A stretch of 64,000 nt of DNA from contig NZ_CP118224.1 in the NCBI RefSeq assembly GCF_030849025.1, forward strand, positions 604,001 through 668,000, written 5' to 3'. The number at the start of each line of letters is the position of its first letter. The stretch's first letter is position 1. Shown piece by piece: positions 25,091 to 34,934 of this stretch. The DNA comes from Oceanimonas pelagia. GTDB lineage: Bacteria > Pseudomonadota > Gammaproteobacteria > Enterobacterales > Aeromonadaceae. The notes below the pieces were generated by a model. The model had not been told where the DNA came from. It ran no database searches and saw only the letters and a program-made list of their open reading frames with translations. The position numbers and the translations under genes are program-made.

Positions 25091-25165
25091 TGGCGTCCCC
25101 GGCAGGAATCGAACCTGCATCTAACCCTTAGGAGGGGCTTGTTTTATCCATTAAACTACGGGGAC
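25091..25165 (-). tRNA. tRNA-Arg (CCT)
   Basis: A 75-base tRNA with encoded CCA. The acceptor GTCCCCG pairs with CGGGGAC, the anticodon loop CTCCTAA gives anticodon CCT, and the T arm is TGCAGGTTCGATTCCTGCC. It matches E. coli argW closely. Such tRNA genes are common phage integration sites, but no integrase or duplicated 3' end is seen here. Confidence 0.97.
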
Positions 25166-25241: not shown

Positions 25242-26375
25242 TTACAGCTGGGTCAGGCGATCGCCGGGCATCACCGCAATGCGTTTGGCCTCGGCGCCGG
25301 CCGGCACCAGCAGGCTGTAGTCGGCATGGCTTTGCTGCACCACAAAGGCGGCCTGTGATGCCGTTTCGCTGTAATAGCCCGGCGTCAGCTGACGGCGGTG
25401 AGTGAGGGTGAATCTGTCTCCCACCTGAATGCCCTCGCGCCGGCCCAGATCCATCAGTATGCCTTCCTCCGACTGTTGCACTATGTTGCCCACCGCCTTG
25501 AGACAGGCCTGGGCCTTGATCACGTCCTGGCTGATGCTCGCCAGCAACTGCTCCACCGCCAGACCGTAACCGGACTGCCAGAATGCCTGTTCATGCACAT
25601 TGACCCTGTCGTGCTTTTTATAGTCCCAGCTGGCGCGGGTCTGATAGCGGCGTTGCAGCAGCACGTCGCCGGTCAGGCTGTCTTCCAGGGTGATGCGCAT
25701 GCGAAAGGCCCGGGGAATGTCGGAAAAGGTCCACTGGGTCCAGTGTCCGTCCTCGATGCTGATGTCTTCAATCACGCCGCTCAGTAACAGCCGGGACTGC
25801 TGTGTGCCGGCGAGCACATCGCTGCCCCGGCGCAGGCCGGCCGTGCGGGGCAGGGCCGGGTCGGTATCCAGGCCAAGGGCAAGGGTCGACGTAATATTGA
25901 CGCTGGGCTCCAGCCGGCTGGCCAGCCGCTGGGCCAGTGCCGTGCCCAGTTCATAGATCTGCCCGGTGGCGCCCTGCTGCGGATGCAGCAGGGTGATGGG
26001 CGTCAGGGTCATGCCCGGGCGATAACGACCGGCGCACTGCTCCTGGCGGCGCTCGCCGGGCCAGATGTCGGCCCGTACCGTCAGCCACAGCCGGCCCTGC
26101 TCCCGGTGCTCGTTCAGGATCAGGTAGTCCATCAGCTCGCCCTGGGCGGAAATATCCAGTTGCTGGCCGGCAAAGGCGCCGTTGGTGGCCGACTGCACCG
26201 TGCTGAGAGAGGCGCCCGACTGCAGCAGCGCATCGCTCAGGGCCTGCTCCAGTGCCTGCTGGCGGGCGGTGTCAACTCCCAGACTGAGCGGCGCCGAGCC
26301 TTCGGCCTGATACCAGTCGGCCCGGGCGAGCAACGGAAACAACAGCAACAGTGAAGCAAGGTTTTTTCTGAGCAC
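25242..26375 (-). CDS. flgT: Flagellar H-ring assembly protein FlgT
   Basis: Periplasmic protein of the H ring that surrounds the LP ring of sodium-type polar flagella and helps anchor the stator. It has 377 residues with a signal peptide MLRKNLASLLLLFPLLARA. The FlgT N-terminal domain is seen in ADWYQAEGSAPL and the following region, with ALADALLQSGA-like helices; the C-terminal SH3-like part contains GRREGIQVGDRFTL. The start is a GTG at 26375 behind AGGA. A sigma54-type promoter lies about 70 bases upstream. The gene is divergent from flgOP. Confidence 0.92.
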   Translation of the reverse strand: MLRKNLASLLLLFPLLARADWYQAEGSAPLSLGVDTARQQALEQALSDALLQSGASLSTVQSATNGAFAGQQLDISAQGELMDYLILNEHREQGRLWLTVRADIWPGERRQEQCAGRYRPGMTLTPITLLHPQQGATGQIYELGTALAQRLASRLEPSVNITSTLALGLDTDPALPRTAGLRRGSDVLAGTQQSRLLLSGVIEDISIEDGHWTQWTFSDIPRAFRMRITLEDSLTGDVLLQRRYQTRASWDYKKHDRVNVHEQAFWQSGYGLAVEQLLASISQDVIKAQACLKAVGNIVQQSEEGILMDLGRREGIQVGDRFTLTHRRQLTPGYYSETASQAAFVVQQSHADYSLLVPAGAEAKRIAVMPGDRLTQL

Positions 26376-26433: not shown

Positions 26434-26461
26434 TGGCAAGGTTTATGCAAAAACCTTGCCG
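26434..26461. promoter_or_regulatory. Bidirectional sigma54-type promoter (flgT and flgO)
   Basis: The palindrome GGCAAGGTTT-atgcaa-AAACCTTGCC (26435-26460) contains a -24/-12 element on each strand: plus TGGCAAG-GTTT-ATGCA and minus CGGCAAG-GTTT-TTGCA. In both, GG and GC are 10 bp apart, and both use the same self-complementary GC at 26447-26448 as the -12 element. Confidence 0.7.
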
Positions 26462-26491: not shown

Positions 26492-26518
26492 TAAAGTTGA
26501 CGCTCCACTGGCCGATAT
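26492..26518 (+). promoter_or_regulatory. Sigma28 (FliA)-type promoter of flgOP
   Basis: TAAAGTTG - 11 bp - GCCGATAT, matching the FliA consensus TAAAGTTT-N11-GCCGATAA at 14 of 16 positions. It is 34 bases before the flgO start. Confidence 0.85.
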
Positions 26519-26551: not shown

Positions 26552-27280
26552 ATGACAAGAGCCCTTATCCTGCTTGCCGTGCTGGGATTGTCCGCCTGCA
26601 CCGGTCAGCCCCGGTTCGACGGTCAAAACCATTACCTGCCTCATGATCATGCGGCTCACTACGTCAGTCACCAGGCCCTGGGGGAGCAGCCGGCGCCGGC
26701 CCGTTCGCCCCGGCACAGTCAGGACGGTGTGCCCATGCGCATGAGTGCCGGCACCCGCAGTGCCCATCTGCCCGAGGCCGGGCCCTCGCTGGTGGGGGGC
26801 CAGACCCAGTTGCAGCGGCACATGTCGGCCCTGGCGCACCGGCTGGTGGCCTCGGCCCACAATATGAACCGGCAGGCAGGCATCGCCGTGAGTGGTTTTG
26901 TCAGCCAGGAGGACTACACCAGCCAGGACGAGTTCAGCCGGCTGCTGTCGGAAACCATGATGTTTCAGCTCAATCAGTACGGGCTGAAGGTGGTGGACTT
27001 CAAGGCGCTGCCCTTTATTCGCATTACGCCCGAGGGGGATGTGAGCACCAGCCGGGACTACCGCCAGCTGAGCGGGCGCATCAATGCCCAGTATCTGTTG
27101 CACGGCACCATCAGCGACACCCAGGGCGGCAAACTGATCAATGCCCGGCTGATCTCCATGGCGGATCACGGCATTGTCAGCAGCGCCCAGCAGTTTGTGC
27201 CCGATTATCTGGTGGCGGCCATGCTGAATACGCGCGGTCCCGAGATCCCCGACTACATCAGGAAACGCTATGAAAAATAA
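26552..27280 (+). CDS. flgO: Flagellar outer-membrane lipoprotein FlgO
   Basis: Outer-membrane lipoprotein of the polar flagellar H ring, 242 residues. The lipobox is LSAC (C17 region) after a short signal peptide. The FlgO domain is recognisable in LAHRLVASAHNMNRQAGIAVSGF, the segment FSRLLSETMMFQLNQYGLKVVD and the final YLLHGTISDTQGGKLINARLIS. FlgO shares its fold with SBP-like TolB-N domains. Its stop overlaps the flgP start by 11 bases, so the two are translationally coupled. Both a sigma54-type and a sigma28-type promoter precede it. Confidence 0.9.
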   Translation: MTRALILLAVLGLSACTGQPRFDGQNHYLPHDHAAHYVSHQALGEQPAPARSPRHSQDGVPMRMSAGTRSAHLPEAGPSLVGGQTQLQRHMSALAHRLVASAHNMNRQAGIAVSGFVSQEDYTSQDEFSRLLSETMMFQLNQYGLKVVDFKALPFIRITPEGDVSTSRDYRQLSGRINAQYLLHGTISDTQGGKLINARLISMADHGIVSSAQQFVPDYLVAAMLNTRGPEIPDYIRKRYEK

Positions 27281-27671
27281 GCTGATTGCCCTGCTGGCAC
27301 TGGTCACCCTGGCCGGCTGTGCCGGCCAGGGAAGCGCCGGTAGTCCGGCCCGGAATCATCTTTATGCGGTGGGTTATGCTCCCATCAGCCTGCAGCGCCC
27401 GGCGGACTACCAGCAGAAACTGCTGCATGCCATGCGTGCCTCGCGTCTGGACGCCTACCGGGAGCTGAGTGAGCAGCTGAGCGGAGTGCGGGTATCGAGC
27501 TCCAGTCAGCTCGACAGTCATATTCTGCAGGACGGCACCGTGAGTAGTGCCAGCCGGGGGGTGGTGCGCGGAGCTCGGGTGGTGAACAGCTATCCCGACG
27601 GCGACATGTACGTGACCGAACTGGAACTGGATCTGGCGCTGTATCAGAAACTGCGCCGGGATGGATTATAA
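27270..27671 (+). CDS. flgP: Flagellar lipoprotein FlgP
   Basis: Outer-membrane lipoprotein of 133 residues that forms the basal disk or H ring around the polar flagellar motor in Vibrio and relatives. The lipobox LAGC follows MKNKLIALLALVT. The conserved region AMRASRLDAYRELSEQLSGVRV and the following SSxSQLDSHILQDGTV are typical. It overlaps flgO and ends convergent to flgN, with 15 bases between stops. Confidence 0.9.
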   Translation: MKNKLIALLALVTLAGCAGQGSAGSPARNHLYAVGYAPISLQRPADYQQKLLHAMRASRLDAYRELSEQLSGVRVSSSSQLDSHILQDGTVSSASRGVVRGARVVNSYPDGDMYVTELELDLALYQKLRRDGL

Positions 27672-34877: not shown

Positions 34878-34894
34878 TGGCACTGATTTTGCAT
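34878..34894 (+). promoter_or_regulatory. Sigma54-type promoter before flgF
   Basis: TGGCACTGATTTTGCAT matches TGGCACG-N4-TTGCAT except one base in the -24 block, with GG and GC 10 bp apart. It lies 41 bases before the flgF start, implying a separate flgF-J(KL) transcript. Confidence 0.85.
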
Positions 34895-34934
34895 TATTTC
34901 CGCCATTACCCACTCGGCCAACTGCGGAGCTGAA

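Follow-up and report, generated by a model that had tools for sequence, protein, structure and literature searches.

A candidate bidirectional sigma54 promoter with one -12 between two -24 elements in the flgT/flgO gap of Oceanimonas and related genera

The divergent genes flgT and flgO of Oceanimonas pelagia are separated by a gap that contains an inverted repeat, each strand of which reads as a sigma54 promoter. FlgT, FlgO and FlgP are parts of one ring, and the question raised by this locus is whether their genes can be transcribed from two opposed promoters built on the same few base pairs and, if so, what a polymerase bound there would do. The window (the whole stretch of DNA that was analysed, 64,000 nucleotides) contains the following features:

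25242-26375, minus strand: flgT (Pfam FlgT_N and FlgT_M, with FlgT_C under the cut-off)
26552-27280, plus strand: flgO (Pfam FlgO, PF17680)
27270-27671, plus strand: putative flgP, second gene of a flgOP unit (named from Pfam LPP20 lipoprotein and its position after flgO)
26435-26444 (GGCAAGGTTT) and 26451-26460 (AAACCTTGCC): palindrome arms, perfectly complementary over 10 bp, read directly
26434-26449, plus strand: sigma54 -24/-12 element toward flgO, TGGCAAGGTTTATGCA, TGGCAAG-GTTT-ATGCA, read directly
26461-26446, minus strand: sigma54 -24/-12 element toward flgT, CGGCAAGGTTTTTGCA, CGGCAAG-GTTT-TTGCA, read directly
26447-26448, both strands: -12 GC common to both elements, read directly
26492-26517, plus strand: sigma28 (FliA)-type promoter of flgO, TAAAGTT-N11-GGCCGATA, full site TAAAGTTGACGCTCCACTGGCCGATA, from pattern and conservation

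Beyond the flgP-like gene, Pfam matches identify flgN, flgM and flgA on the minus strand, then a CheW-plus-receiver gene (of the CheV kind) on the plus strand. A tRNA-Arg gene (CCT) is located at 25091-25165 on the minus strand, just past the end of flgT. The genome contains rpoN (TIGR02395 above cut-off) and a FliA-family gene, also above cut-off.

The perfect 10-bp palindrome reported by the first-pass annotation proved exact on re-reading, in letters as in positions, and so did its description of a -24/-12 element on each strand with GG and GC ten bases apart (the context being TGGCA/TTGCA-like). The two elements had also been said to use the same GC at 26447-26448; this is correct, and in fact the four bases TGCA (26446-26449) are common to the plus and minus elements. 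One core element can be read both ways, which at the level of the sequence is what is expected of a bidirectional promoter. Elements were scored with our own weights (maximum 21.5), built on the general sigma54 -24/-12 consensus, and both elements reach 20.0. From the spacing, transcription is predicted to start at about 26460-26461 on the plus strand and at about 26434-26435 on the minus strand.

To evaluate the role of chance, the site was compared with shuffled sequences and with the rest of the genome. When each of two opposed GG-N10-GC elements on one GC is required to score 19 or more, the window contains a single such pair and none of 60 dinucleotide shuffles has any; at a laxer cut of 17.5 three such pairs are found, whereas the 60 shuffles average 0.53 and never exceed 3. 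The pattern GGCA-N7-TGCA-N7-TGCC is not enriched in the window when up to two mismatches are allowed (9 matches, 9.49 expected). Its exact form is present at a single place in the 3.59-Mb genome, in which up to one mismatch fits 24 places: only the exact match stands out against expectation, the lax form does not.

Conservation of the site was analysed in a genus group of 23 genomes, which includes Oceanimonas, Oceanisphaera and Zobellella species and in which 20 genomes have a FlgO match. A GC common to two strong elements (score of at least 17 each) was found in 17 of these 20, and the 17 shared sites score at least 20 on either side. Their GC is located 89 to 327 bp from where flgO is estimated to start. 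In the shared sites T1, G2-A5, G7, A12 and TGCA of the plus element are invariant (position 6 is A in 14 sites and G in 3), as are GGCAAG and TTGCA of the minus element; these fixed letters are partly built in, since the sites were chosen by a score or by a pattern demanding TGGCA, TGCA and TGCC. When the gaps of eight genomes, picked for their short gaps, were aligned, 21 of the 28 columns of the site were invariant, versus 7 of 58 on its flgT side and 1 of 30 in the columns that directly follow it. The other invariant stretches are found near both gene starts, where they would correspond to ribosome-binding regions, and at the sigma28-type promoter; beyond these, the eight-genome alignment showed no conserved block to propose as an FlrC site.

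Three other genomes of the group (G003, G006 and G018) depart from the shared strong layout. G003 and G006 retain GG-N10-GC-N10-CC with a weakened flgO side, the scores being 15.5 and 14 respectively. It can be noted that in these two genomes, where the flgO-side element is weakened, FlgO is unusually diverged (about 50 and 56% identity to that of the window, with 76 and 67% for FlgT). In G018 (locus L015) the plus and minus promoters are both complete and face each other with their GCs 50 bp apart, which suggests a site that was split, shifted or duplicated while both directions were kept. Two separate promoters are as would be expected if both directions are needed.

The first-pass annotation had named conservation of the palindrome in relatives as a check. 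The layout of two elements is kept, with the weakening of the flgO side in G003 and G006 mentioned above, and the palindrome itself is not: the 10-bp arms are perfect in only 3 of the 17 shared sites, which is not the lasting complementarity that relatives of a palindromic operator should display. Arm-to-arm pairing fails to different degrees along the site, position 8 being paired in 8 of the 17 sites, position 9 in 6, position 1 in 1 and position 12 in none; this relation between arms, unlike the fixed letters, was not built in by site selection. Position 12 is systematically A toward flgO and T toward flgT (17 of 17), so that no site contains TTGCAA, though TTGCAA would give TTGCA on both strands. 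Toward flgT, all shared sites have TTGCA (21 of 21, counting the genus group together with a second family, f16), and toward flgO, ATGCA is found in 17 of 17 sites of the genus group. On this comparison the perfect palindrome is a local accident, and the kept feature is a pair of -24 elements around one -12.

The search was extended to other lineages of the order, in which FlgO-like matches were obtained in 202 of 394 genomes and a chosen part was fetched. Family f16 was represented by five genomes, four of them with a FlgO match; in G089, which has no tblastn FlgO match, the gap was read outward from flgT. A GC common to opposed elements is present in 4 of the 4 f16 gaps read, with unlike arms, distributed as follows: TGGCAAG, TGGCGAA, TGGCAAG and TGGCGAG toward flgO, and TGGAAT, TGGAAC, TGGAAC and TGGAAC toward flgT. 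As for a common origin of the layout, the FlgT tree unites f16 with the genus group (support 98/87 with 59 rows and 86/89 with 48 rows), but long branches meet in this tree and the test does not reject a clade of the two f1 genera (p-AU 0.124).

The presence of a GG at the mirrored place was surveyed in 57 gaps, 13 of 70 loci having been dropped as they had no flgT match beside flgO; in the survey of shared GCs, 16 of the 20 loci L066-L085 were dropped, their flgT match not being beside flgO. The best flgT-side element, by which we mean the top score in the gap and which in some gaps (such as that of L099) may differ from the true flgT promoter, scores 16 to 19.5 in all 57 gaps, and flgO-side elements are more variable or missing. 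When the genus group, f16 and genus g62 are set aside, 49 control gaps remain, and a GG is found at the mirrored place in 1 of them. Genus g2 (Aeromonas by inference), which belongs to the family of the window, has a flgO-side GG at this place in none of the 12 gaps read. Opposed promoters in other arrangements were also observed. Family f21 has four gaps with plus and minus promoters 60 bp apart; in family f22 the two promoters face each other at 58-71 bp in 6 of the 7 gaps, with flgO-side scores of 16 to 17. Two loci of genus g4, again in the family of the window (L240 and L241), have opposed sigma54 elements facing each other with unshared GCs 22-23 bp apart. Genus g62, a member of f21, was considered as further support and set aside: its two gaps (2 of 2) have two strong elements on a common GC, but a second, stronger flgO element is located 60-61 bp off, at the spacing of its relatives.

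Genome scans give an idea of how often comparable sites occur elsewhere. The pattern TGGCAMG-N4-WTGCAW-N4-CKTGCC, which would miss layouts like those of f16, matched 57 loci in genome contigs, nine of which are the flgT/flgO site of the genus group. A crude ORF screen, made on the first match at each of the 57 loci, placed six others in divergent gaps. Pfam analysis of the flanks of five of these six (the sixth being L118) identified two beside HSP70 in Gemmatimonadetes and one beside a sodium/proton exchanger in Pandoraea, the remaining two having a TPR protein or nothing named; none of the five looked flagellar. The two Gemmatimonadetes loci (L125 and L153) carry a TGGCACG...CGTGCC inverted repeat in a divergent gap by the HSP70 gene, which could represent a heat-shock operator and not a sigma54 site. 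The pattern TGGCA-N7-TGCA-N7-TGCCA matched in 9 of the 394 genomes of the order, with no control hits in the rows obtained. Two of these 9 are sites of the genus group (flgT/flgO in G012 and flgF in G020), and in 6 of the other seven the match is inside an ORF of 150-691 aa.

The flgF promoter was used as a control for the behavior of mirrored elements. In the window it is located at 34878-34905 (TGGCACTGATTTTGCA) and has a mirrored element, TGGCGGAAATAATGCA, on the same GC, pointing back to flgE. FlgF was matched in 22 of the 23 genomes of the genus group, and 20 were read after G001 and G010 (weak matches) had been left out. A strong forward element was found in 15 of the 20, with a mirrored GG in 6 of those 15, a proportion higher than one in sixteen at a place where there is no divergent gene. 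A mirrored element can thus appear, or be retained, where no divergent gene is present. Such elements are less kept at flgF than between flgT and flgO, and the idea that a mirror element is a general trait of sigma54 promoters in these genomes was abandoned: 6 of 15, though above chance, is not general.

flgO has a second candidate promoter, which was absent from the first-pass annotation. The sequence at 26492-26517 resembles TAAAG...GCCGATA, which we take to be the sigma28 motif; the spacing matches and fliA is present in the genome, which makes it a predicted sigma28 promoter. The pattern was found in 19 of 20 genus-group, 4 of 4 f16 and 3 of 3 family-f12 flgO gaps read. Across the eight aligned gaps, 15 of the 27 columns from 26492 to 26518 are invariant, compared to 1 of 30 in the preceding stretch. 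Because of this conserved sigma28-type promoter, flgOP need not depend on the shared sigma54 site. The plus element may be partly dispensable, given this promoter and the decay of the flgO side in G003 and G006.

Taken together, it appears likely that the site is a bidirectional sigma54 promoter, with one -12 between two -24 elements, on which polymerase can bind either way and not both ways at once; the polymerase would probably have to choose a direction at each binding. The proposed mechanism is as follows. With the TGCA -12 flanked by a -24 on each side, the closed complex of the sigma54 polymerase would face flgT or flgOP, never both, and a flagellar activator of the FlrC class would open whichever complex is loaded. 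In this way 28 bp would provide flgT and flgOP with shared expression of class III timing, and the downstream sigma28-type promoter would add later, independent transcription of flgOP. Mutual exclusion of the two polymerases is suggested by the geometry of the site, and dependence on sigma54 and FlrC by the orthologous genes of Aeromonas and V. cholerae; use of the sigma28 promoter for flgOP is predicted. In Aeromonas, flgT transcription is reported to be absent from flrA and flrBC mutants and present when fliA is mutated (PMC4960245). Work on V. cholerae reports that expression of a flgO reporter needs phosphorylated FlrB, and assigns flgOP and flgT to the FlrBC regulon (PMC12607845). In V. 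fischeri, FlrA was found to act on a flgO reporter, and flgT-lacZ was not significantly changed in a flrA mutant (PMC3948606); by analogy, this last result would count against the two-way sigma54 reading.

Given a bidirectional promoter, the chances are about even that both directions work and never interfere at natural rates, the site providing compact co-regulation without choice. That V. cholerae flgOP and flgT belong to one FlrBC regulon would fit such co-activation as well as it fits choice. According to a study of sigma70 bidirectional promoters having their -10 in common, opposed polymerases exclude each other and competition is possible once one direction has been activated, and the five promoters tested had too little basal activity to compete (PMC12825309). 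On the other hand, the sigma54 polymerase of E. coli is reported as mostly bound and transcriptionally inactive under the conditions tested (PMC4591121), so that occupancy could exceed that of the sigma70 sites.

A regulatory choice between flgT and flgOP is possible, and we regard its strict form, a true direction switch, as rather unlikely. The sigma54 polymerase would load in a stable inactive form with its orientation redrawn at each loading, one activator would fire whatever is loaded, and flgT and flgOP transcripts would alternate near a fixed ratio in single cells. The fixed asymmetry of TTGCA (flgT) versus ATGCA (flgO) would set this ratio, which would match genes for parts of one ring, and sigma28 would later free flgOP.

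It is quite improbable that only the minus (flgT) sigma54 promoter works, the plus element being a relic or by-product and sigma28 driving flgOP. The steady scores of flgT-side elements in all 57 gaps, next to flgO-side ones that vary more or are missing, would fit this explanation, as would the conservation of the sigma28 motif in the genus group and the decay of the plus element in G003 and G006. However, the plus element keeps TGGCA, G7 and ATGCA in the 17 shared sites while the flanks have diverged (eight genomes), the flgO reporter of V. cholerae is FlrB-dependent, and in G018 the plus promoter is complete and stands away from its minus counterpart. Finally, the idea that the repeat binds a dimeric regulator as its operator or folds into a hairpin, with the -24/-12 likeness secondary, was rejected as very improbable: the perfect 10-bp arms of this genome would fit it, but arms lose complementarity across relatives with mispairing at positions that sigma54 ignores, they are unlike in f16, the elements are separated in G018, and neither predicted transcript would hold both arms because the predicted starts are at the outer ends of the repeat.

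The bidirectional sigma54 promoter proposed here can be compared with several known systems. Like the site proposed here, bidirectional sigma70 promoters in E. coli (Warman, Grainger and others; PMC12825309) are reported to have a symmetric core used both ways, on which opposed polymerases exclude each other, with starts that flank this core or fall inside it. They differ in that the -10 is shared and starts are mostly 18 bp apart, whereas here it is the -12 and the predicted starts are about 25-27 bp apart, each on the -24 GG of the other promoter; the -12 would be read by sigma54, which needs an activator, and the term sigma54 occurs 0 times in the main text of that article. The divergent sgrR and sgrST-setA of E. 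coli were both concluded to be under an NtrC-dependent RpoN holoenzyme (PMC8743547), which makes them a divergent pair with RpoN on both sides; compared by description only, they differ in that two -24/-12 elements on one -12 are not part of the account available. In Salmonella, 20 RpoN binding sites in divergent promoter regions are called bidirectional promoters (PMC10794520), but this label is positional (between divergent genes) and a shared -12 does not figure in the description available.

Among flagellar systems, the class III flgT of Aeromonas hydrophila is similar in having a putative sigma54 promoter that is FlrC-dependent by RT-PCR (PMC4960245), whereas in genus g2 (Aeromonas by inference) all 12 gaps read lack a flgO-side GG opposite it. 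Likewise, the flgOP and flgT genes of V. cholerae are both class III and FlrBC-dependent; a shared site does not figure in the description available, and the word 'divergent' occurs 0 times in the main text of that article (PMC12607845). A pair reported by Johansson and others in 2008, considered by its title (a reference in PMC3844500), also has divergent promoters and cross-talk with sigma54 polymerase, but involves a non-overlapping sigma70 promoter and not two sigma54 promoters on one -12. In the open-access articles searched, most subscription journals being outside this scope, we found no account of two sigma54 promoters built around a single -12.

Shared-core bidirectional promoters are a recent sigma70 theme, and a conserved counterpart for sigma54 would extend it to a mechanistically separate sigma family. 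With sigma54, loading is uncoupled from firing and the activator is obligatory, so that orientation choice, interference and noise would be separable and testable, and natural variants of the site (shared, weakened and separated) exist within one genus group. Divergent genes both under sigma54 were known already, as were sigma70 promoters sharing a -10, and the flgT/flgO site is best read as the sigma54 counterpart of the latter, with a shared -12.
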